A stretch of 64,000 nt of DNA from the NCBI GenBank assembly GCA_001442925.1, contig LDXX01000011.1, positions 1 through 64,000 on the forward strand. Reading direction: 5' to 3'. Of this stretch, positions 1 to 56,658 are shown one piece after another. The position numbers were made by a program, and so were the translations under genes. Under the pieces are notes generated by a model. It was not told where the DNA came from and did no database searches. It saw only the letters and a list, made by a program, of their open reading frames with translations. Numbering within the stretch: position 1 is the first letter of the stretch; every line of letters starts with the position of its first letter. The DNA comes from Candidatus Kryptonium thompsonii (GTDB lineage Bacteria > Bacteroidota > Ignavibacteria > Kryptoniales > Kryptoniaceae).

Positions 1-3000
1 GTATCAACCAAAACAAAACTAACCCTATGCCCATGATAATTATCAACTCTTAAAACTATCCTACCACTTTCACCCCAATTGTGCGGGTCATTATCCCTTG
101 GTGTAATCCTGAAAATAACATCACCATAATAACCCGGCAAATCCGCACCACTCCTCCACACCAAATATCCACTATACCCACCCCTGCCAACCAATGTATC
201 ACCAACTATACTAGCCCTATTCCAATCAACACCATTAACTGAATACTCAACCCTCAACCTCACACTATCCCCCTCAACATCACTCACAACATAATCTACC
301 CTCACATCCCCGCTTACCTCTCCCAATATATCGCTTAAAACTATACTCGGATTACTATTCCCATCATCAGGATAAAAGTCATAAATTTGCTCACCAGATA
401 CATTACCTACTAAATCTTTTATGTTCCTACAACTCAACGATATTAAACTATCTGCAGATGGCAAAACTTGACCAGATGAAAGGTGAAGATAATAAATATT
501 AGTTTTCAGATATATCGGAACTAACTCCGTCACTCCATCCAGCCTTCTCCAAGATAAACCAACAAAAGCATCGCCATAATATTCACTAAATTCTAATATT
601 ATTGGATAAATGCCAGCCCCATAATTTCTAGTTACACTTAGAGGATAAGATTTCCACCAATCATTCCACTGATTTATTAATGTATCTGAACCAACAATTA
701 ACCTAACACCATCATACTGTGAAGCATTAAGTGAAAATGTATAATCACCCGGTAACGGTATATAAATATATCCTTTGAATCTAACTGAAAAATAATCAAT
801 ATTTATCCCACTTTTAGGCGCACTATACCCCCAATTAAAATTAATTACAGATAAATCCCTAACCGTATCCTTAGAAACAAATGTTTCAAAGTTTGTGCCA
901 CTGTAATACTCAACAATATACCTCATATTTGGTTTTACTGAACCAACCTTTAACCCTAGATTCAATCTCCAATTTGATGTATCAATCACACTTGAAACAT
1001 CAACCGCCTCATTAAACTTAACAGTTATCACACTATCCCTTTGAACCCCAAATGCATACACCAACACAGGTGCCCTCGAATCTGAAACAACAGAATCTAA
1101 AACAACCACCGGTGACTTCCTCCCATCATACGATATAGCCCTTATACCAAACTTATAATACCCATCAGCAAAAATACCACTGTAACTTAAAACACTTGAA
1201 TCAACCTCAATTATTGCAAAATTCGTATCCAAAACCCCTGTCTGATTATCGCTATACAACGCATATCTTGATGCAAATGGATGCCTATCCCAACTAAACC
1301 TTACCTCCCCACCAGGCCTACTCTCTGCCCTAAACCCTGTAACCGCAAGCATACCCACCTTCTCACTATAATAAGGCTCAAACCTAACCCTAACTGTCAC
1401 TCCATCATCATAAAAATCATATATCTTCGAAATGATCTCATTCCTATCAGCTGTCCCCCACCAATTATATTTTGCATCTATTGAATCACTCGCCTGAAGC
1501 GTTGCCCTGAAATCATACTCAACATTACCATATATGTTGTTGTAATTAACAACCGGCTTACCCAATGTCTCTATACCATCTCCAAAATTATCGAAAATGT
1601 CATTATACAAAATCTGATTATTCCCCCTCGTATTTATCCCATCTCCTAAATTCCCACTTATCACATTCTCCCTTATGGATATACTCAAATTAGTCTGAAG
1701 TCCAACTCCCCCGTTATTTACAACCCTATTCCTCTCAAAATTAACACCACCATTATCCCATATGTATACACCCGAACCATTACCACTTACTAAATTGCCC
1801 CTTGCAACACCACCACTAACACCATACAAATACATACCCCAACCACTATTGTCTCTTATAACATTATTAACCACCTCAAGATATCCAACCCCGTAATTGT
1901 AATTTATCCCATTAACACCTGACTTAATCTCATTACCTATAACTTTAAGTGTCCCATATGTCCAACCATCAACATAAACACCATTCGAATTCCTCTCAAA
2001 CTTATTCCCACTAACCTCAACACTCCCACCATTTGCCCTTACCCCTACACTATTGCCAACAAAATTACTATATCTCACATACCCATTGCTTGAGTAAAAG
2101 TTAACCCCATCCGATGTATTCCCATCAAAAATACAACTATCAATTGATACATTTGAAACCGATGAAACCCTTACACCAACGCTATTCCTTAAAAACTTAC
2201 TCCCCCGAACTATCAAATTACTACTCGTATCGCTTATACCATATCCATTGCTCTCAAATATGCTATTGTAAACCTCTATCCCCGCTGAACCATTTGCCCA
2301 AATACCATTATCTGAATACTCCACCCTCGCATACCTGAAACTACCACTGCTACCACTCCTGAACCTTATCCCAGGATATCTCATCGTGTCAGGATATAAA
2401 CTCGTAAACACCACACTATCTCCTTCCGCACCCTCTACCTCAAGTATACCATCAACATTGAAATTATATCTGCCCTTGAACACTACCCTAACTCCAGACT
2501 CTATCCTCAACTTAACTCCCGCATCTACACCAATATGACCTGAAACTATGTATGGTGAATTAGACCTCGTCCAAACTGTGTTCTCAGTTATAACCCCACT
2601 TACATAATTACCACTATACCCAACTAACCTAACAACCAACCTCGGCTCCCTCGGATCATTGCTTAATATCATAAGTGAATCTATAAACTCACCAGAAACC
2701 GAAGGTGAAAAAACAACCTCAACACTATCCAAACCTAACGGTGGTATACTTAAACTCGCCCTTGAAACAGAAAATGGCAAATTAACACTTGGCAAAGAAA
2801 TTGATAATACACTATCCACACCATCATTATATATCTTTAAATACAAACTTTTCCTCCCACCAACTGAAACATCTCCAAATGATAAAATTTTCTTATCTAA
2901 ACTTATATCTGCACCCCGATTACTATTGCGAAGGATTGAAATAGTGTCTGAACCCCAATTTGCAACTACAATATCAACATCACCGTCACCATCTAAATCT

Positions 3001-5546
3001 GAGGTGTAGACTGAATAAGGCTCGCTCCCAACATTAATATCGCTTACCTTAACAAAACTTAAACTACCATCATTGCGAAATATTGACACCGTGTTTAAAT
3101 CCTCATTTGCAACTACAATATCAATATCTCCATCGCCATCTAAATCTGATGCGTGAACTGAACGAGGTCTAGCTCCAACACTAATATCACTTACCCTAAT
3201 AAAATTTAAACCACCATCATTGCGAAGTACTAATGCTGTGTATGAACCAGCAACCACAATATCAATATCTCTATCACCATCTAAATCCGATGTGTGAACA
3301 GACCAAGGCCTAGTTCCAACACTAATATCACTCACCTTAACAAAATTTAAACCACCATCATTGCGAAGGATTGATACTGTATTTGAACCCCAATTTGCAA
3401 CTATATCAATATCTCCATCGCCATCTAAATCTGATGTGTGGACTGAAGAAGAACCGCTCCCAACCCCAATATCACCTATCCTAACAAAACTTAAACCACC
3501 ATCATTACGAAGGATTGATACTGCGTTTGAAGAGGCATTTGCAACTATAATATCAACATCGCCATCTCCATCCAAATCTGATGTGTATACTGAAGAAGGC
3601 AAATTCCCAACCCCAATATCACCTACCCTAACAAAACTTAAACCACCATCATTACGAAGGATTGATACTGTGTACGAATACAAATTTGCAACCACAATAT
3701 CAATATCTCCATCACCATCTAAATCTGATGTGTGAACTGAGACAGGCCAACTTCCAACACTAATATCGCTTACCCTAACAAAACTTAAACCACCATCATT
3801 GCGAAGGATTGATACTGTGTATAAATCGCGATTTGCAACCACAATATCAATATCTCCATCGCCATCCAAATCCGATGTGTGAACCGAATGTGGAGCATCC
3901 CCAACCCCAATATCTCTTACCCTAACAAATGAACCACTCCCATCATCCACCTTCACAGTAAAACTCCAAGTATAAGAACTCGACATTGAATCACCGGTTG
4001 TGCTTCTTATGCCTCTTGTAAGAGTCACACTTACAACTTCGCCTTGTATAAAATCTTTGAGGGGATCAATCGTTGCTGTCTTCGTAGCCGAAGTATAGCT
4101 TATATTTGTCTGATGCAAACCACTCTGCGAACCCTGGATTTTTACCGTTGAACTTGTCAAAGTTGTTGGGTCAACATCTTTGCTAAATGTAACTTCAATA
4201 TTTGTTGCCTTATCTACATTCAACGCATTTTTACCCGGAAGGAAACTTATAGGTTTTAGTGTATCAACAACACCATTACCAACTAACTTTACATATAACT
4301 TCGGTTTATTTAGATCATTACTTGTAACAATAACTGAATCTTCAAATCTACTTTTACTTGTTGGCTTAAATGTTACACCGACACTATCAACCCCTAATCC
4401 TGGTATTGAAAAACTTGTCTTTGAAAGTGAAAATACTGAACCTAAACCTAAACTTAAATTACCTGTCAATGTGCTATCAATCCCATCATTATTTATTTTT
4501 AAATACAGTGTCTTACTTGAATCAACTTTAACATCTCCAAAGAAAAAAGAATTTGATGATAAAACTATATCCGCACTACGATTGCGATTCTTTAATACTG
4601 AAACTGTATTTGAATTATAATTTGCCACGGCAATATCCAAATCCCCATCATTATCTATGTCTCCTAATGATATACCCCGAGGAATACTTCCAACTCCATA
4701 ATCAACTTTTGCAGCATAAGTCCCATCTCCATTGTTCCTTAATACTGAAACTGTATTTGAATAATAATTTGTTACAGCAATATCTAAATCTCCATCACTA
4801 TCAATGTCCCCTAATGATATATCATTAGGCTCACTTCCAACTCCATAATCAACTTTTGCAGCGTAAGTTCCATCCCCATTGTTCCTTAATACTGAAACTG
4901 TAATTGAACTCCAATTTATCACAGCGATATCCAAATCTCCATCATTATCTATGTCTCCTAATGATATATCATGAGGATTAATTCCAACTCCATAATCAAC
5001 TTTTGCAGCATAAGTTCCATCCCCATTGTTCCTTAATACTGAAACTGTATTTGAACCATTATTTGCCACAGTAATATCCAAATCTCCATCTCCATCTATA
5101 TCTCCCAATGATATACCATAAGGCTGACTTCCAACTCCATAATCAACTTTTGCAGCATAAGTCCCACTTCCATCATCTACTTTAACAGTAAAACTCCAAA
5201 CATAGGAACTCAACATCGAATCACCACTCACGCTCCTTATTCCCCTCGTTAAAATTACACTTACTACCTCCCCAGGCTTAAAATCCTTAACAGGATCTAT
5301 CATCACTGTCCTTGTAGAGGAATCATAAGAAATCGTCGCACTGTAAAGCCCAGTCTGTGAACCATAAACTCGTATATTTGAACTCGTAAGCGTCGCAGGA
5401 TCGATATCCTGTGTAAACACCACAGAAATAACTACATCCCTATTTACATTTAACGCATTCCGAGATGGAACTGTTGTTACTATATTTAACTGAGCAAATG
5501 ACGAGCTAATGAAAACCAAAAGAAAAAGTATTAAAAACTTTCTCAT
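1..5546 (-). CDS. Giant secreted multidomain protein (FG-GAP propellers, choice-of-anchor D, beta-helix, PA14), 3' end outside window
   Basis: An uninterrupted reading frame of 1848 codons starts at the ATG at 5544-5546 and runs off the left edge. I checked the frame at several points. The N-terminus is a signal peptide ending near SSSFAQ. Domains in order, by residue: Big_5/SbsA-like Ig domain about 20-118; four FG-GAP/VCBS repeats about 123-318 with DIDGDGDLDI-type calcium loops; choice-of-anchor D domain about 320-422; a second Big_5 domain about 424-530; seven FG-GAP repeats about 531-870 (DLDGDGDIDI); a second choice-of-anchor D domain about 871-976; right-handed beta-helix about 982-1372, ending in a YNWWG motif; fibronectin-III-like region about 1389-1482; PA14-like domain about 1550-1672 (GDYTF, DGVRLIV). 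This architecture suggests an extracellular calcium- and carbohydrate-binding surface protein. The C-terminus, where a sorting or dockerin domain would lie, is not visible. The coding strand is very poor in C. No clear Shine-Dalgarno sequence is visible. Confidence 0.9.
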   Translation of the reverse strand, partial: MRKFLILFLLVFISSSFAQLNIVTTVPSRNALNVNRDVVISVVFTQDIDPATLTSSNIRVYGSQTGLYSATISYDSSTRTVMIDPVKDFKPGEVVSVILTRGIRSVSGDSMLSSYVWSFTVKVDDGSGTYAAKVDYGVGSQPYGISLGDIDGDGDLDITVANNGSNTVSVLRNNGDGTYAAKVDYGVGINPHDISLGDIDNDGDLDIAVINWSSITVSVLRNNGDGTYAAKVDYGVGSEPNDISLGDIDSDGDLDIAVTNYYSNTVSVLRNNGDGTYAAKVDYGVGSIPRGISLGDIDNDGDLDIAVANYNSNTVSVLKNRNRSADIVLSSNSFFFGDVKVDSSKTLYLKINNDGIDSTLTGNLSLGLGSVFSLSKTSFSIPGLGVDSVGVTFKPTSKSRFEDSVIVTSNDLNKPKLYVKLVGNGVVDTLKPISFLPGKNALNVDKATNIEVTFSKDVDPTTLTSSTVKIQGSQSGLHQTNISYTSATKTATIDPLKDFIQGEVVSVTLTRGIRSTTGDSMSSSYTWSFTVKVDDGSGSFVRVRDIGVGDAPHSVHTSDLDGDGDIDIVVANRDLYTVSILRNDGGLSFVRVSDISVGSWPVSVHTSDLDGDGDIDIVVANLYSYTVSILRNDGGLSFVRVGDIGVGNLPSSVYTSDLDGDGDVDIIVANASSNAVSILRNDGGLSFVRIGDIGVGSGSSSVHTSDLDGDGDIDIVANWGSNTVSILRNDGGLNFVKVSDISVGTRPWSVHTSDLDGDRDIDIVVAGSYTALVLRNDGGLNFIRVSDISVGARPRSVHASDLDGDGDIDIVVANEDLNTVSIFRNDGSLSFVKVSDINVGSEPYSVYTSDLDGDGDVDIVVANWGSDTISILRNSNRGADISLDKKILSFGDVSVGGRKSLYLKIYNDGVDSVLSISLPSVNLPFSVSRASLSIPPLGLDSVEVVFSPSVSGEFIDSLMILSNDPREPRLVVRLVGYSGNYVSGVITENTVWTRSNSPYIVSGHIGVDAGVKLRIESGVRVVFKGRYNFNVDGILEVEGAEGDSVVFTSLYPDTMRYPGIRFRSGSSGSFRYARVEYSDNGIWANGSAGIEVYNSIFESNGYGISDTSSNLIVRGSKFLRNSVGVRVSSVSNVSIDSCIFDGNTSDGVNFYSSNGYVRYSNFVGNSVGVRANGGSVEVSGNKFERNSNGVYVDGWTYGTLKVIGNEIKSGVNGINYNYGVGYLEVVNNVIRDNSGWGMYLYGVSGGVARGNLVSGNGSGVYIWDNGGVNFERNRVVNNGGVGLQTNLSISIRENVISGNLGDGINTRGNNQILYNDIFDNFGDGIETLGKPVVNYNNIYGNVEYDFRATLQASDSIDAKYNWWGTADRNEIISKIYDFYDDGVTVRVRFEPYYSEKVGMLAVTGFRAESRPGGEVRFSWDRHPFASRYALYSDNQTGVLDTNFAIIEVDSSVLSYSGIFADGYYKFGIRAISYDGRKSPVVVLDSVVSDSRAPVLVYAFGVQRDSVITVKFNEAVDVSSVIDTSNWRLNLGLKVGSVKPNMRYIVEYYSGTNFETFVSKDTVRDLSVINFNWGYSAPKSGINIDYFSVRFKGYIYIPLPGDYTFSLNASQYDGVRLIVGSDTLINQWNDWWKSYPLSVTRNYGAGIYPIILEFSEYYGDAFVGLSWRRLDGVTELVPIYLKTNIYYLHLSSGQVLPSADSLISLSCRNIKDLVGNVSGEQIYDFYPDDGNSNPSIVLSDILGEVSGDVRVDYVVSDVEGDSVRLRVEYSVNGVDWNRASIVGDTLVGRGGYSGYLVWRSGADLPGYYGDVIFRITPRDNDPHNWGESGRIVLRVDNYHGHRVSFVLVD
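2926..3965 (-). repeat. Seven tandem FG-GAP-encoding repeats, 141-147-nt period
   Basis: The landmark TTGCG/TTACG recurs at 2926, 3073, 3220, 3361, 3505, 3652 and 3799. Spacings are 147, 147, 141, 144, 147 and 147. The two short spacings correspond to units that lost one or two codons in frame. Seven units could form one seven-bladed propeller. Sequence similarity between units is strong enough for unequal recombination. Confidence 0.9.
4590..5180 (-). repeat. Four tandem FG-GAP-encoding repeats, 147-nt period
   Basis: The same landmark (CAACTCC on the plus strand) recurs at 4691, 4838, 4985 and 5132, exactly 147 bases apart. The units encode about 49 residues each and are highly similar at the DNA level. 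They form the first propeller-like block of the giant secreted protein. Confidence 0.9.
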
Positions 5547-5596
5547 AGTTTTGCATCAACTTTTGATTTTCATTTTTACTCACTTTTCTCCTTTTT

Positions 5597-5620
5597 CCCC
5601 TCTCTATTTATAGAGAGGGG
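5597..5620. other. Perfect 10-bp stem-loop between the cohesin lipoprotein and the giant gene
   Basis: The stem arms CCCCTCTCTA and TAGAGAGGGG flank a TTTA loop. Neither strand has a T-tract after the hairpin, so it is not a classical intrinsic terminator for the upstream minus-strand gene. It could be an RNA processing or stability element between the two cistrons. Confidence 0.6.
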
Positions 5621-5631
5621 CAAGGGGTGAG

Positions 5632-6465
5632 TTACCTCACCACCACTATCCCTTGAACAAGCTCTTTTATCTCAACTGTCCGATTCTCGCTATCTCTCAT
5701 AATTGAATTTGCACTATCAAAAGAAATTGTCTTTGTTTCCCCTGATCCAGATAAAACTTTAAACCTTATCCTACCAATTCGACCAGTTCCATTTACATCT
5801 GCAGGATTTCCCCCAGCAACAGCAACATTTATTTCAATTTTTCTATTAGTTTTATCTATAGCCACAAAATCGATGATATTACCTCCATTTTTAAGAAGAA
5901 GAGATACTGAATCTTTATAAATCTGCACATATTCAACATCAAATAGATTATCATAGGTAATTACCGTTTTAAGCCCCGCAAAGTTTGTCGCCTCTTCAAC
6001 TAAAATTTCAACATCAAAATATTGCCCCGCCGTGATTTCAACTTTCCTTGGGCGGAACATAAGCGCAGGTCCCTTAACAGCATCAACTGTGAAATCAACT
6101 TTCGCAGGCTCTTCCTGTTCAATGTTATTTATATATTTCGCCTTTACCATAAATGTATGTTTTCCTTCATCAAGATAAGTAAATGTCGCTTCCTTAACAT
6201 TGCTCCAATTAGACCAATTTTGATTGTCAAGTTTATAACTAAAAAGCATCAAACTATCCGCTTGATTCCCACGCCACTTGAATGTAACTGTATGCTCGGT
6301 AACAATGCTATTATTGCTTGGTCCATCTATGATTTCAGCTTTCGGCGGTTGAAACACTGGACTTTTTGGATCAATTGGATTTTCCCTCTCAGGTGGGGGT
6401 GGTTCAGTTACGATATTACAACTGATAAAAACCAGAGCAATCAAGAAAATGTAAAGATACCTCAT
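5632..6465 (-). CDS. Lipoprotein with an Ig-like region and a cohesin-like domain
   Basis: The 277-residue product begins with a lipoprotein signal peptide whose lipobox ends at Cys16 (VFISC), so it is expected to be lipid-anchored in the cell envelope. A proline-rich linker follows. Next comes an Ig/Y_Y_Y-like beta region about 40-128, and then a domain about 133-277 with the features of cohesin/carbohydrate-scaffold domains: an ITAGQYFDVEI strand, NFAGLKTVITYD, and a late GRIGRIRFKV strand. Cohesins bind dockerin modules, and this class of domain also occurs outside cellulosomes. The gene lies 54 bases after the caspase-like gene and 85 bases before the giant gene on the same strand, so the three are probably co-transcribed. 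The fold assignment rests on pattern recognition only; another immunoglobulin-like adhesin fold is possible. Confidence 0.75.
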   Translation of the reverse strand: MRYLYIFLIALVFISCNIVTEPPPPERENPIDPKSPVFQPPKAEIIDGPSNNSIVTEHTVTFKWRGNQADSLMLFSYKLDNQNWSNWSNVKEATFTYLDEGKHTFMVKAKYINNIEQEEPAKVDFTVDAVKGPALMFRPRKVEITAGQYFDVEILVEEATNFAGLKTVITYDNLFDVEYVQIYKDSVSLLLKNGGNIIDFVAIDKTNRKIEINVAVAGGNPADVNGTGRIGRIRFKVLSGSGETKTISFDSANSIMRDSENRTVEIKELVQGIVVVR

Positions 6466-6519
6466 AAAAACTTCTATCGTTTTTTATAAATCAACTTCAA
6501 CTCTATATGTAAAAAATCT

Positions 6520-8460
6520 TTAAAAATTAATGCTTACATTTACCGAATTACCCCTTATCCCTAATTTAAATGCCCTCTCGCTATACACCTTATCTGGCGA
6601 GAAAATAATCGCGTCAACGAGATTAAATAACCATATTGCAGATGCAACGCCTGAACCTATGAAAAAGTAATTCTTAAATTTCCTCATTGAATCGTAATTT
6701 TTCGTCATAAGCGAATAATAATTCTCCATCTCATTAATATCATCAGCTGAGAGATAAAGATTTCTATATCTTTCATACTCCTTTTTATAGCCCAAATATT
6801 TCGAAAAATAGTTAACAGTCAATGCTCCAGCCAATATCTCAGATACAGTTAAAGGCAACCCAATATCTTCCCTTCCCATATAAATCTGCCCAGCCCCTGG
6901 GAGAAAAGCAGAAAGAAGGATAGATGTAAACTTTGACTTTGGCTCAATTATCAAGGGGACATCCATTTCAGGCTTATCAACTTTTATTTTTCGAGTTGTG
7001 GAATGATAACCAAGTTTATTCAACTTGATTTCATACTCACCATAAACAAGTTCGATTTCCTTGGCAGGCAACCTGGAAATATTTTTCTCAATTCCCTCTC
7101 CCTTTATCAAGACATTAACATCACCTCTAAGTCCAACTAAGTTTACCTTCGAACGCATCTTTTCAAGTTTCACTTCGACCTTAGCCCTGTCAACCGAAAT
7201 TAAATCAACCTCTTGAGAATAATCCTGATAATCCGCAAGAGCAAGTTTGATAACATATTTATCCTTTTTAATCTTTGGAATGTAGAGAGGAGTTTTCCCT
7301 ACGAGTTTATCCTTCAAAATAACATCTGCTCCGGTTGGAGTGCTTACAACTTCAAGAAAACCAGCCTTTTCAAGTTTCACATTTAAATCGTGATAATCTT
7401 CACTAATCTCAACTTCACCCATATAATCAAAATAACCATCAAGTTTAAGTTCAACTTTATATTTTCCAAATTCATATACATCCACTTCCAAAGGCGTCTT
7501 ACCAAGTTTCTCCCCATTGATATAAATATCCGCTCCCTCTGGCTCCGATTTAACTTCAAGCATCGATACCCTCATTCTCGGTATGAAAACAAATTCACCA
7601 CCCCTATCTCCAACAAGTATTCCATATTGCGGTGTTTGCTGACCCTTTGATTCAGATGTAACCCTTGGAAGTATGTAGCTTGCGATCTCACTCGCTGTAA
7701 TTATACCATTTTTGTCGAGGTCAGCAAATCCCTCATCAAGCCCTTTAATAAAATGAAATGTGAAAACACTATGTCCACCTGGACCAGTGTCAAAAACAGG
7801 TTGATCTCTGCCACCCGCCGTCAATGCCTGCCTTGTTCTTCTTTTTGAAACGATCTCAACAAAGCTAACCGCATCAGCAGAGACGGTAGGCTGTGAACGA
7901 GCAAATATCAAACCACCGTAGCAAGCATCCATAACAAAATATAAATGCTTCGCAGGAATTGCCTCCGAGATTTCGTTTAGTTGGTCAGTTGATATAGCAG
8001 TTAGAACAGGCTGGGACGGGTCTGCATCGACAGGAAGAATATAACCTCTCTCTTTCCCTTCAGGCAAAGGCATCGTTATACCATGACCAGCGAAGAAAAC
8101 AAAAACCCTATCATCCTCAAAGGTTTCTTTTATCAATCTTTCAAACGCCTTAAGTATGTTATCCTTTGTAGCCTCGGAATCATAAAGCTTTATAACATAC
8201 TTCGAGCCAAAACCATACTTTTTAATCAAAAGATTTGCAATAGCCTCAGCATCATTTACCGCATACCTCAACTTATTTGCTTTAACATACTCATTAATAC
8301 CTATTATCAAAGCCCAACTTCTCTTAAAAAATGAACTACCCCCGCCAGTTTTTGTTCTCAAACCTATTCCCCTCAAAGATTCTGTTGTGTCCCTTTGCTG
8401 AGAGAGTAGTGGAATGAAAAATGAAAATAAGACCGATAAAACTAAAATAACGCGCCTCAT
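6520..8460 (-). CDS. Exported caspase-like (C14) peptidase with PEGA repeats and DUF5683-like C-terminus
   Basis: The 646-residue protein has a signal peptide (residues 1-20) and a caspase-fold domain about 45-290. The expected dyad is present: His126 in FFAGHG and Cys180 in DACYGG. An EF-hand-like stretch (DLDKNGIITASE) lies near the end of the domain. Three PEGA-like beta modules follow, about 300-370, 370-440 and 440-510, with SEPEGADIYING-type starts. The C-terminal part, about 515-620, has two hydrophobic segments and a PGAGQIYMG motif like DUF5683 proteins. Caspase-like bacterial proteases cut after basic or acidic residues and often act on envelope or signalling partners; the substrate here is unknown. 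A good promoter lies at 8497-8525 and a GGAGG sequence sits just before the ATG. It is probably the first gene of a unit with the cohesin lipoprotein and the giant protein. Confidence 0.88.
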   Translation of the reverse strand: MRRVILVLSVLFSFFIPLLSQQRDTTESLRGIGLRTKTGGGSSFFKRSWALIIGINEYVKANKLRYAVNDAEAIANLLIKKYGFGSKYVIKLYDSEATKDNILKAFERLIKETFEDDRVFVFFAGHGITMPLPEGKERGYILPVDADPSQPVLTAISTDQLNEISEAIPAKHLYFVMDACYGGLIFARSQPTVSADAVSFVEIVSKRRTRQALTAGGRDQPVFDTGPGGHSVFTFHFIKGLDEGFADLDKNGIITASEIASYILPRVTSESKGQQTPQYGILVGDRGGEFVFIPRMRVSMLEVKSEPEGADIYINGEKLGKTPLEVDVYEFGKYKVELKLDGYFDYMGEVEISEDYHDLNVKLEKAGFLEVVSTPTGADVILKDKLVGKTPLYIPKIKKDKYVIKLALADYQDYSQEVDLISVDRAKVEVKLEKMRSKVNLVGLRGDVNVLIKGEGIEKNISRLPAKEIELVYGEYEIKLNKLGYHSTTRKIKVDKPEMDVPLIIEPKSKFTSILLSAFLPGAGQIYMGREDIGLPLTVSEILAGALTVNYFSKYLGYKKEYERYRNLYLSADDINEMENYYSLMTKNYDSMRKFKNYFFIGSGVASAIWLFNLVDAIIFSPDKVYSERAFKLGIRGNSVNVSINF

Positions 8461-8496
8461 TTTATTGCCTCCCTCTATGTTTAGCTCTACACGAAG

Positions 8497-8525
8497 AATA
8501 TAAAAAACTCAAAAATAAAAGTCAA
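8497..8525 (-). promoter_or_regulatory. Sigma70-like promoter for the caspase-like gene
   Basis: On the minus strand, TTGACT (8525-8520) and TATATT (8502-8497) are separated by exactly 17 bases. Transcription would start near 8490, leaving a leader of about 30 bases that contains GGGAGG shortly before the ATG at 8460. Confidence 0.7.
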
Positions 8526-8705: not shown

Positions 8706-9254
8706 ATGATAAAACGAGCTTTAACTTTAATCGTGCTTATCCCAGCACTCTTACTTGCCCAACTCAAATCCCAAAGCAACGAAACTTCGAAAAATGATGA
8801 ATTTATCTCAAAAAGAAAACTTACCGCTTTAACCTACTCAACTTTTATCCCGGGCGCGGGACAATTTTACCTTGGACATAAAATAAAGGGAGTTTTCTTC
8901 ACTTTGACAGCCTTTGGTTCACTCGTCGTAACAATTGTCTCACAAAATAATCTCGTCGGGGGAAATGAACGACTTGAAAACCTTGAGATGCAATATGTAA
9001 GCACAATGAATTGGGAAAGAGCAGAACAAATTTGGCAAGAAATGGTTCGCGTCAAATCCGACATTGATAAAGATTATAAACGAAGGAATTTGTTTCTCGG
9101 CATAACTGCTGGGATATGGGTTGCAAATATAATTGATGTTTTATTCTTTACATCCGACAAAGGCGCCGGAGATATATTCGGATACAACAAATCATTGTTT
9201 GAAATTAAAAGCGGAAACAAAGAAATTATGCTTACGGTAAAACTTAACTTTTAA
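8706..9254 (+). CDS. DUF5683-family membrane protein
   Basis: The 182-residue protein has an N-terminal signal or membrane segment (residues 1-18), then a STFIPGAGQFYLG motif about 47-60 and two hydrophobic helices about 62-82 and 125-148. This is the pattern of DUF5683, an uncharacterised envelope family of the FCB group. A charged, helical stretch lies between the two helices. The C-terminus ends as a strand (IMLTVKLNF), which hints at an outer-membrane or beta context. The same module forms the C-terminus of the divergently transcribed caspase-like protein, including the paired PGAGQ motif and a VDxxFF/NxxDxxFF ending. The stop codon is 5 bases before larB, so it is likely the first gene of the larB-larA operon. 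Its function is unknown. Confidence 0.75.
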   Translation: MIKRALTLIVLIPALLLAQLKSQSNETSKNDEFISKRKLTALTYSTFIPGAGQFYLGHKIKGVFFTLTAFGSLVVTIVSQNNLVGGNERLENLEMQYVSTMNWERAEQIWQEMVRVKSDIDKDYKRRNLFLGITAGIWVANIIDVLFFTSDKGAGDIFGYNKSLFEIKSGNKEIMLTVKLNF

Positions 9255-52939: not shown

Positions 52940-54814
52940 TTACTTGACTAACATCATTTTCCTCGTTTTCTCAAAATTACCAAACTTAAGCTTATACAAA
53001 TAAATCCCACTTGAAACTGGTTTCCCGTTTTTATCTTTCCCATCCCACGTCACCGTATGCTTACCTTTCGGGAATTCCTGTTCATCAATTAATCGGACGA
53101 CCTCACGACCAGTGACATCATAAATTATCAAGCTGATTTTCTTATCAACTGGCAGATAGAAAGATATATTTGTCGTAGGGTTAAACGGATTTGGATAATT
53201 CTGGTAAAGTTCATAATCATCTAGGGTTATAACTGTGATATCTCTAACCTTTACGCTTGTTGCAACATCAGATTCAATAACTCTAATTATTCTTCTATTG
53301 AATGTATTTACAGTTCTAACAACCGAATCAGTTACATATGCGTTTGTGTTCGGGTCAAAACGCATATATTTTATTGTTATGCTATCAGGAATACTTTGAT
53401 AGCAAAAGGCCAACTCACGCTTCATATTGTTATCAAGGTCAATTCCACCAGCAACTAAGCGAGGAACGAAAAATTGTTCATTTCTAAGAACTCGCTTTAC
53501 CTTAATCCCAAGAGAATCTATCACATAAAGGGTATCTCTTGGATTATGTGTTGGAGTTATAACATCCAGAGAATCTCCTGAATATAAAACTCTGATTGAA
53601 TAGCTACTTGAATCTAAAATATTGCCACCATTGTAAGTTATTTCAATTATATCAAACCCAGTTATACCGGCAACATACAAATTGGGTTTATTATCCCCAT
53701 CTTGATTTCCAGCGAAAACAGAAAACACAGTACTCCCACCTGATACATGCTGGAATAGTTTAACAACTTTTGTCGAATCCACTTCAAGCACATTATCCCC
53801 AGGGCTATAGTTAACAATATATAATTCATCTGCTGGATACCTAACAAGGAAAACTTCATCGTTTCCATCTTTATCAATATCTGCTACAGCAGCTCCAAGT
53901 AAGCTAACACCGTCAAGACCAGGAGATGCTTGATAAAAGCGTTTCGGTGAGCTTGTATCCGCAAGAACATAAGTATCAGGGCTTGGAACCTTAACTATGA
54001 AAACATTTTGATAGTTATATGAATTAAAAACAATCTCCTTTTTCCCATCGCCATCAAGATCTGCCACAGCAAAAGTCCAAGGACTACCGCTACCATAACC
54101 AGCCCTGGGACTGATATAAAACTCAGTTTTTAAGGTAGCAAATGGATCATTAACCTCAGTGCCATCAAGGGAATAAATTATATAGACATCTTCTCTAGTA
54201 GTGTTGGCATCATCTTTAGCTACAATTAATTCCTGTTTATTATCCCCATCAACATCATAAGCCGCAAGTGCTTGAACTGTAAATCTAGCAAATGAATCTG
54301 GCGGGGCGTAATAAAGAGATGCATAGAAAAATTGTTCCTTCGTTGGATCTCCATATTTATTTTCTCCCACATTACCATTCCATTCATAAACATATATCCC
54401 CCTTATAGGTATTTCCGATGCATCAACATTACCTATTGCAAAAGTTATTTCAGGAAGCCCATTGCCATCTAAATCTGTGATAACAACATCTCTTGGCGTT
54501 GAATTACGACCAACCCTTGCAGCTCCGATTGGCGGGGATGACCACACAAGTTCAAGTGTATCCTTTCCAACATACTCAAACAGATGAACTCTGGAGTAAT
54601 AGTAATCAGTTGCTATCAGTTCTAATTTCCCATCTTTATCGGTATCAAATCCTGCCTTTATGGAGCGTACGTGTAAAGGTCCACCAGCAGCATACCATTT
54701 AGTCGTATCTTTAACAGGTGGAGCATAAGTAGCTTTCCAATGAAATCCTGTCTGTGATACGACAACTTCAGATAACAAGAACAAAATAGTAAGTAAAGAA
54801 ATTAACCTCTTCAT
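52940..54814 (-). CDS. Secreted FG-GAP-repeat protein with T9SS-type sorting domain, copy A
   Basis: A TTG start at 54829 is possible, but the ATG at 54814 has GGAGG upstream and starts the signal peptide (KRLISLLTILFLLSEVVVSQ), giving 624 residues. The body has repeated calcium-loop motifs: DTDKDGKLEL, DLDGNGLPEI, DVDGDNKQEL, DLDGDGKKEI, DIDKDGNDEV. The repeats suggest a beta-propeller. The last about 90 residues start YPNPFNPTT and contain DVTGREVVRL and SGIYLYKLKFG, the T9SS/FlgD-like sorting domain. It has a good promoter and its own terminator. Its neighbour at 54991 is a paralogue. Function is unknown. Confidence 0.87.
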   Translation of the reverse strand: MKRLISLLTILFLLSEVVVSQTGFHWKATYAPPVKDTTKWYAAGGPLHVRSIKAGFDTDKDGKLELIATDYYYSRVHLFEYVGKDTLELVWSSPPIGAARVGRNSTPRDVVITDLDGNGLPEITFAIGNVDASEIPIRGIYVYEWNGNVGENKYGDPTKEQFFYASLYYAPPDSFARFTVQALAAYDVDGDNKQELIVAKDDANTTREDVYIIYSLDGTEVNDPFATLKTEFYISPRAGYGSGSPWTFAVADLDGDGKKEIVFNSYNYQNVFIVKVPSPDTYVLADTSSPKRFYQASPGLDGVSLLGAAVADIDKDGNDEVFLVRYPADELYIVNYSPGDNVLEVDSTKVVKLFQHVSGGSTVFSVFAGNQDGDNKPNLYVAGITGFDIIEITYNGGNILDSSSYSIRVLYSGDSLDVITPTHNPRDTLYVIDSLGIKVKRVLRNEQFFVPRLVAGGIDLDNNMKRELAFCYQSIPDSITIKYMRFDPNTNAYVTDSVVRTVNTFNRRIIRVIESDVATSVKVRDITVITLDDYELYQNYPNPFNPTTNISFYLPVDKKISLIIYDVTGREVVRLIDEQEFPKGKHTVTWDGKDKNGKPVSSGIYLYKLKFGNFEKTRKMMLVK

Positions 54815-54859
54815 TTTTAACCTCCGCAAGTTTGTTTGTCAATAACCATCTTTGAACTT

Positions 54860-54990: not shown

Positions 54991-56658
54991 TCACTTCAAA
55001 AGAATCATTCTCCTTGAAACCTCAAATTTACCCGCTTTAATTTTGTAAATATAAACTCCACTTGCAACCCTTGCTCCACTTTCATCAGTTCCATCCCAAC
55101 TCAACCTATGTCTTCCAGCTACGAAATGCGTATTTTCCACCAAGGTTTTAACCAATCTTCCATCGATTGTGTAAATTTTTAATGTTACAAATTCATCCTT
55201 CGGCAAATTGAATTCAATCCATGTCGTCGGGTTAAATGGGTTTGGATAGTTTTGAGCAAGATAATAACCCGTTAAAATTTCGTCATTTTGGGCTTGAACC
55301 TTCACAGCCACATCACTTTCAAACACAATGAAAAATCCCCTCGTTGAATCAGGTCTTTGCAATGAGCCAATGACAACTTCTCTTTTACCGTCTCCATCCA
55401 TATCTACCCCTGGAATGCTAACATAATAATATCTTGGGGTTCCAATTGTATCATCAAGGAATACACTCCATTCCCAACTTGTCGAGTCAGCGAAAGAACC
55501 AGAACCTTTATATTCAATGTGGTAAACATTTCGATAATTCCCAGCCACAATTATATCTAAATTTCCATCACCATCCAAATCCCCATAATCAGCTCCTCGA
55601 GTATAATCCCAACCACCAACTTTACGGAAGTAGGTTGAATCAATCTCACTCACATCATTTGGTTTCTTATTCTCAATAAATACAAGCTGCCCATTTGTTG
55701 CCATTGCAAATCCTTCTGGGTAACCATCGTTATCCATATCCATAAATTTCAAATTTCTTAATGTTCCAACCGTAGTTCCTGAACCAATGTGCGAATTTCT
55801 GACAACTTTTTTAATAACATAATTATCAGGTCCTTCAGCTTCAACTATTACCCATGTAAAATCAGTCCATGTTCCAAACCAAATTTCCTTCTTCCCGTCT
55901 TTATCAAAGTCTGTTACCGCAATATCAAATGCCCAAGTTGCGGTAAGAGAACTATCTTTAAATTCAACCTTGAATGTAGAAAAGGGTCCAAGGTCATTTC
56001 CATCAAGTGAGATTATCCAAGTGTGAATTCCTGATGTTCTGTCTATCAATGCTATCTCTTGCTTGCCATCGGCGTCAAAATCATCAGGCAAAAGATATGT
56101 TAACCTAAACCCAGCATCGCCATCCGCCGAATAGTCTAAATTCCAACTGAACGTTGGTTCACTTGGGAATGTTCCAGATTGAGAATCAAATTCATAAAAA
56201 AATATCTTATCTGGATTTGAAATCCCTGAGTTAGGGTCAGCATTAGAGGGGTTAACAAAACAAATTTCATAATTCCCATCCCCATCAACGTCTGTAATAT
56301 TTACGCCAGGAAAACTATAACCCGTCGTAACCGATGTCAAAGGTAATCCAACAGACCACAAAAGTTTGTAATTATCATTACCATTATTCTCAAACCAAAA
56401 AATCCATTTCGTCGTATCTCCCGAAGATGGGCTTGAAACAGTCGGATCATTTATCGCAAGTATTTCAAGTTTCCCATTCTTGTTTAAATCTAAACCAGCG
56501 ATGACGTCATCACAACCATCAATCTTAGGGATAACTGGATAATTCGCTACATAAGAGACATGGAAACCTGATTTCAAGTAATACAATGGATATTGAACTT
56601 GAGCCAAGGAAACTGAAACCAACGAGAGTAAAATAAGTAAAGCAAGAGTTTTTTTCAT
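54991..56658 (-). CDS. Secreted FG-GAP-repeat protein with T9SS-type sorting domain, copy B
   Basis: The 555-residue protein has a signal peptide ending VSLAQ and GGGAGG 8 bases before the ATG. FG-GAP-type motifs repeat through the body (DLNKNGKLEI, DVDGDGNYEI, DFDADGKQEI, DFDKDGKKEI, DLDGDGNLDI, DMDGDGKREV). The C-terminus starts YPNPFNPTTWIEFNLPKDE and ends SGVYIYKIKAGKFEVSRRMILLK-like, a T9SS/FlgD-type sorting domain. It is a paralogue of the adjacent copy A. Each copy has its own promoter and terminator, so they are separate units. Function is unknown. Confidence 0.87.
   Translation of the reverse strand: MKKTLALLILLSLVSVSLAQVQYPLYYLKSGFHVSYVANYPVIPKIDGCDDVIAGLDLNKNGKLEILAINDPTVSSPSSGDTTKWIFWFENNGNDNYKLLWSVGLPLTSVTTGYSFPGVNITDVDGDGNYEICFVNPSNADPNSGISNPDKIFFYEFDSQSGTFPSEPTFSWNLDYSADGDAGFRLTYLLPDDFDADGKQEIALIDRTSGIHTWIISLDGNDLGPFSTFKVEFKDSSLTATWAFDIAVTDFDKDGKKEIWFGTWTDFTWVIVEAEGPDNYVIKKVVRNSHIGSGTTVGTLRNLKFMDMDNDGYPEGFAMATNGQLVFIENKKPNDVSEIDSTYFRKVGGWDYTRGADYGDLDGDGNLDIIVAGNYRNVYHIEYKGSGSFADSTSWEWSVFLDDTIGTPRYYYVSIPGVDMDGDGKREVVIGSLQRPDSTRGFFIVFESDVAVKVQAQNDEILTGYYLAQNYPNPFNPTTWIEFNLPKDEFVTLKIYTIDGRLVKTLVENTHFVAGRHRLSWDGTDESGARVASGVYIYKIKAGKFEVSRRMILLK

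Follow-up and report, generated by a model that had tools for sequence, protein, structure and literature searches.

Cellulosomes are the main setting in which cohesin-dockerin pairs are known, and the usual view of T9SS cargo is that its sorting tail anchors it. In Ca. Stygibacter (Cloacimonadota), a cellulosome-like set includes a large cohesin protein with a C-terminal sorting domain; there, the cohesins sit in a scaffoldin, and hydrolases and peptidases bear the dockerins (PMC8542988). For Ca. Kryptonia, 811 proteins with T9SS type A sorting tails (Por_Secre_tail/TIGR04183) have been reported (PMC4737851), and the cellulases of Melioribacter were reported to be devoid of dockerins (PMC3534657). 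We searched the family libraries and, for cohesins or dockerins in connection with T9SS, Ignavibacteria, Kryptonia, caspases or PEGA repeats, the open-licence literature, and found no description of such a cassette. The gene cassette presented here is conserved and apparently undescribed.

The three genes of the locus

The window, that is, the whole stretch of 64,000 nucleotides that was analyzed, starts at base 1 of contig C11 (genome G000, 2.59 Mb, 98% complete). Base 1 is also the end of the contig, and the last of three minus-strand open reading frames (646, 277 and at least 1848 aa) is open there at its 3′ end. The original prediction had described three consecutive minus-strand genes separated by 54 and 85 bp, and our ORF calls reproduced coordinates and gaps exactly. 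We refer to the genes as CASP, LIPO and GIANT; their features are as follows.

6520..8460 (-): CASP, exported caspase-like (C14) protein with PEGA repeats and a DUF5683-type membrane tail, 646 aa (ORF, Pfam, homologue alignment, PDB profile)
7624..8322 (-): C14 caspase domain of CASP, residues 47-279, with His126 at 8083-8085 and Cys180 at 7921-7923 (Pfam, alignment)
7366..7563 (-): PEGA domain of CASP, best stretch, residues 300-365 (Pfam)
6601..6927 (-): DUF5683-like membrane tail of CASP, residues 512-620 (Pfam)
5632..6465 (-): LIPO, lipoprotein with an Ig-like Y_Y_Y domain and a cohesin domain, 277 aa (ORF, Pfam, alignment)
6085..6252 (-): Ig-like Y_Y_Y domain of LIPO, residues 72-127 (Pfam)
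5671..6045 (-): cohesin domain of LIPO, residues 141-265 (Pfam 20.2 bits, PDB profile, AlphaFold/Foldseek)
5597..5620 (.): perfect palindrome CCCCTCTC-N8-GAGAGGGG in the LIPO/GIANT gap, a dispersed-repeat copy (repeat and hairpin analysis)
3..5546 (-): GIANT, N-terminal 1848 aa of a giant secreted protein with signal peptide, Big_5, FG-GAP propeller repeats, ASH/HYDIN Ig, beta-helix and PA14 (ORF, Pfam, comparison with relatives)
2964..3146 (-): best FG-GAP stretch of GIANT, residues 801-861, out of 11 stretches (Pfam)
1929..2372 (-): right-handed beta-helix region of GIANT, residues 1059-1206 (Pfam)
525..908 (-): PA14 domain of GIANT, residues 1547-1674 (Pfam)

Two details of the original prediction were not upheld. 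The good promoter placed ahead of the genes is at chance level, as we counted 10 sigma-70-like sites where 10.0 were expected, by a consensus that may not apply in this lineage. Neither could the three genes be confirmed as one transcription unit: the dispersed repeat between LIPO and GIANT forms a strong hairpin (z = -6), which leaves a single transcript unproven. Further copies of this repeat (CTCACCCC..CCCCTCTC-N8-GAGAGGGG) are found on contigs C1, C2, C10 and C17 of G000; they lie mostly directly 3′ of stop codons, often those of genes for T9SS-tail proteins, and the repeat is present within both CASP-LIPO loci of the genome. Elsewhere in the window, positions 8706-9254 code for a divergent 182-aa DUF5683 protein resembling the membrane tail of CASP, kept in the same place in G002, a genome of the same genus, and tandem genes at 52943-54829 and 54994-56658 code for FG-GAP proteins with T9SS tails and without the dockerin-like module described below. 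A search for a plasmid-borne origin gave no match.

CASP conforms to what had been predicted, an exported C14 protease with His126/Cys180, PEGA repeats and a membrane tail. Pfam matched Peptidase_C14 (78 bits), PEGA (110 bits in two stretches) and the DUF5683 tail, and both His126, within AGHG, and Cys180, within DACYGG, are invariant across eight aligned homologues; by profile, its best PDB relatives are metacaspases. A third PEGA/caspase homologue (G000:C2:16796-18145) stands directly behind a T9SS-tail gene, with no adjoining LIPO. When genomes were scanned with the caspase alignment, the other matches were generic caspases in unrelated phyla, with neither LIPO nor the module in the part of the surrounding DNA that was covered. 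A defense system was also considered and rejected, the PADLOC match being to the generic 'caspase' model only.

The prediction of a lipid-anchored protein with a cohesin-like domain was likewise borne out. In Pfam, LIPO matched Y_Y_Y and, at 20.2 bits and thus under the cut-off of 24.1, Cohesin (PF00963); NCBIfam holds no family for it. A family profile built from ten homologues and compared with the PDB placed solved cohesins first (ScaB, E=4e-13), and in a Foldseek search with the AlphaFold model (five sequences, pLDDT 74.5) cohesins led the list, with target-normalized TM-scores of up to 0.80. Profile and model of 5632-6465 agree in assigning the domain a cohesin fold, and the domain would bind a dockerin. 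The lipobox reads VFISC, with Cys16 invariant in the ten-member alignment; in the listed homologues this cysteine follows a hydrophobic stretch, the lipobox being loose in some. In two 1887-aa proteins, encoded on G344:C105 and G296:C154, a LIPO-type cohesin stretch and a dockerin-like module occur within a single polypeptide.

The probable C-terminus of GIANT and its dockerin-like module

Pfam matches to Big_5, FG-GAP (11 stretches), ASH, Beta_helix and PA14 confirmed the propellers, beta-helix and PA14 predicted for GIANT, a protein of at least 1848 residues with a signal peptide. For the missing end we turned to a 2318-residue fragment of G003 (L144), whose first 1340 residues align to residues 477-1848 of GIANT (58%) and whose last 630 residues are 77% identical to an ORF that runs off the right end of contig C5 in G000, a candidate C-terminal part of GIANT at G000:C5:357090-358994(-). 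About 345 residues of Ig repeats in L144 correspond to the gap between C11 and C5, and the genes downstream of the giant's end follow in G002 an order identical to that of C5. We looked for an exact overlap between the ends of C5 and C11 and found none; because of the G003 orthology and the G002 synteny, the two contigs most likely meet inside GIANT, whose C-terminus would thus lie on C5 and whose gene would span roughly 2,830 codons (1848 + about 345 + 635).

In G003, PA14 and Ig repeats are followed by a dockerin-like module, a Pfam Cohesin match (31 bits, cut-off 24.1) and a T9SS tail. On C5, too, Ig repeats lead into a dockerin-like double loop, followed by a second cohesin domain, which exceeds the Pfam cut-off, and by a T9SS tail. 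Its tail scores 15 bits in Pfam and 19.7 in TIGR04183, both under the cut-off, and has a typical NYPNPFNP motif; scores above the cut-off were obtained for the partner protein on C1 (31-37 bits) and the giant of G597 (34.5 bits). Judged by these matches, GIANT carries a predicted T9SS type A sorting domain. Extension of the 3′ end, as the original prediction had proposed, therefore yielded both a dockerin-like module, if a divergent one, and a T9SS domain on the likely C5 end. Among giants in general, the outer parts differ (propellers, cadherin, Big_1, Reelin-like) and the tail end is constant.

The module was first noticed by reading the proteins that accompany LIPO, after a Dockerin_1 search had given nothing. 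With Pfam Dockerin_1 (PF00404), no match was obtained in G000 at E<=0.001, and none in the giant even at E=1; the best score in relatives was 16.5 bits against a cut-off of 22.9. Membership in PF00404 was rejected on these scores, and we named the module dockerin-like instead. In the C-terminal part on C5 it reads as a double loop, DYNLDKKVNIEDL...PDGKVDFEDL..., and the Kryptonia giants have two loops of the D-x-N/D-x-D-x(5)-D type. Module profiles compared with the PDB placed dockerins first (E=0.0018 with 6 modules, E=7e-4 with 20), and the NCBIfam model dockerin_GC spans both loops (E=5e-4, 20.3 bits, under its cut-off of 29). A Trp is invariant in each of the two helices, with a long linker. 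One or both loops lack the acids in G009, G019 and several members of families f10 and f22. A single-sequence AlphaFold model of the dockerin-cohesin-tail segment of G019 was unusable (pLDDT 33). At G003:C12:430910-437433, apart from LIPO, a cluster of large proteins has two weak dockerin-like matches and a cohesin match.

Conservation of the cassette and its possible role

Genome G000 codes for about 48 T9SS-tail proteins, yet it gave only two module matches, and both were assigned to LIPO-linked proteins. One is GIANT, with the contig gap in between; the other has 1016 aa and is encoded on C1, next to a CASP and a LIPO of its own. Class-wide, among 391 genomes, LIPO (E<1e-20) was present in 27 and the module in 28, with 23 genomes holding both (Fisher p=2e-28, uncorrected for phylogeny); LIPO without the module was seen in four genomes, and the module without LIPO in five. 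Outside the genus the figures were 20, 22 and 17 (p=2e-22, kinship uncorrected). The giant adjoins LIPO or is one gene further in 23 of the 38 LIPO loci, several of the others stopping at a contig edge; at L223 (G314:C210), LIPO lies between two giant genes, one of 2836+ aa with the module and the other of 2201+ aa. Outside the class, the window's order of PEGA protein, LIPO and giant recurs in G597, G458 (two loci) and G499; in G597, a member of another class of the phylum, the caspase is intact and the giant has 26 FG-GAP stretches. The linkage is therefore kept far beyond the genus. A cohesin fold, a dockerin-like module, though a divergent one, ahead of an otherwise ordinary T9SS sorting domain, and conserved gene order were all found, so that none of the outcomes named as contrary to the original prediction (a different fold, an ordinary sorting domain with no dockerin, no linkage) was seen.

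The LIPO tree and the module tree each have one strongly supported split, into types A and B, and the two splits match. Among the same-contig LIPO-module pairs (n=17), 12 were BB, 5 were AA and none was mixed; G000 holds one A and one B pair, and matched A sub-pairs also occur in two genomes of f17. G003 is an exception: its LIPO is of type B, one module, probably that of the giant next to it, is of type A, and another module, of type B, is unlinked.

We consider it fairly probable that the locus is a conserved surface-display cassette in which the LIPO cohesin holds a T9SS-exported giant at the outer membrane and the PEGA/caspase protein plays an accessory part. Its backing consists of the LIPO domain fold, the dockerin-like sequence, the T9SS tail, the conserved linkage and the matched A/B lineages; physical LIPO-giant binding, surface location and the role of the PEGA/caspase protein are inferred. 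The giant would be exported by T9SS with a dockerin-like double calcium-loop module near its C-terminus, before the sorting tail, and the neighboring lipid-anchored LIPO would catch this module through its cohesin, so that the giant would be held or positioned at the outer membrane. Counting against docking are the scores of the dockerin, which stay under the library cut-offs, the loops that lack their acids in some relatives, the unlike types in G003, and the genomes that have LIPO or the module alone. A T9SS tail by itself is also able to anchor proteins, and a cohesin-like domain of the giant, next to its dockerin, could allow pairing within or between giants. The main rivals are an export escort and the giant's own cohesin-dockerin self-pairing. 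As a periplasmic escort or receptor, LIPO would take the module before export and hand the giant to the T9SS channel, with no later anchoring. One dedicated LIPO per giant, with matched subtypes, suits this role, and the giant's own tail could do the anchoring; nevertheless, most of the T9SS-tail proteins of G000 have no such partner, and calcium-stabilized dockerins usually work outside the cytoplasm and on folded proteins, and we regard an escort as unlikely. Somewhat more doubtful still is that the dockerin binds the cohesin-like domain immediately following it, as a cis cap near the sorting tail or in a trans head-to-tail polymer, leaving LIPO as an end-cap or unrelated. The two domains do lie side by side in the giants of G000, G003 and G597, but Pfam detects no second cohesin in the tested giants of f17, f22 and f4, and self-pairing leaves unexplained why the presence, position and subtype of LIPO track the module.

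If docking is correct, the PEGA-repeat protein with its membrane tail would be an envelope accessory whose caspase domain is intact in the window's lineage; repeats and tail would probably tether or scaffold, with proteolysis optional. The original prediction had instead suggested proteolytic maturation by the caspase-like enzyme, which would cut the giant or LIPO. Consistent with this, a caspase with its His/Cys motifs kept in at least one copy adjoins LIPO in the window's lineage, G019, G161, G297, G207 and G597. As a general rule the suggestion fails, however: a PEGA/tail protein adjoins LIPO in 24 of the 38 loci, in 16 of them with a caspase domain. In the f17 genomes G315, G120 and G251, pseudocaspases still adjoin LIPO (L219 7322-9343, L220 7111-9141 and L224 7648-9681) but have GRG in place of GHG and no catalytic Cys; G120-C46, G251-C7, G006-C3, G005-C160, G458 and G499 have only the PEGA and membrane-tail part; and the f10/f22 giant-LIPO pairs have no caspase or PEGA/tail protein adjoining. 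With the domain dead or missing, or the whole gene absent, in relatives, proteolysis is not a defining function of the cassette, and a maturation protease seems very unlikely. More speculatively, the cassette may be a dedicated giant-assembly system of Bacteroidota, in which a calcium-dependent cohesin LIPO would receive each giant via a private dockerin subtype and the PEGA protein, its caspase active or dead, would link this outer-membrane dock with the inner envelope and sense or edit what is loaded; we see this as a tentative idea with a low but appreciable chance of being right.

That a LIPO-giant pair is conserved in at least two classes, with its subtypes inherited together, points to a separate docking route dedicated to giant T9SS proteins. 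Being small, the pairs lend themselves to in vitro work, and they would give new thermostable cohesin-dockerin couples. What exported bacterial caspases do also becomes testable, since their active site was lost repeatedly next to a PEGA/tail protein that was kept.

Comparison with known systems

The cassette shares with the cellulosome pairs of Clostridium/Acetivibrio (type I/II scaffoldins) the cohesin fold and, probably, a two-loop dockerin-like module and a surface-anchored cohesin for a secreted dockerin protein. It differs from them in having one cohesin per lipid anchor, with no scaffoldin array and no enzymes; its proposed partner is a giant T9SS-exported propeller/Ig/beta-helix protein, and its dockerin is divergent, with a conserved Trp in both helices and a long linker. 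A cellulosome was rejected because there is no scaffoldin and no enzyme with the module: each LIPO has one cohesin, the module occurs in G000 only in the two LIPO-linked giants, and no enzyme domains were detected in these two proteins. Non-cellulosomal cohesin/dockerin proteins, such as the Archaeoglobus cohesin 2xdh, likewise fall outside classical cellulosomes. As in T9SS type A surface proteins, the giants have a tail and a signal peptide, whereas a module before the tail and a dedicated adjoining cohesin lipoprotein are not part of that system as described. CASP resembles prokaryotic C14/metacaspase proteins in its caspase domain with His/Cys motifs but is exported, has PEGA repeats and a membrane tail, and is tied to a cohesin lipoprotein, its caspase being dispensable in relatives. 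The nearest described relative of the cassette is the cellulosome-like set of Cloacimonadota (PMC8542988), from which it differs in that the cohesin is on a small lipoprotein, the dockerin is on the giant, and a PEGA/caspase gene is linked to both.
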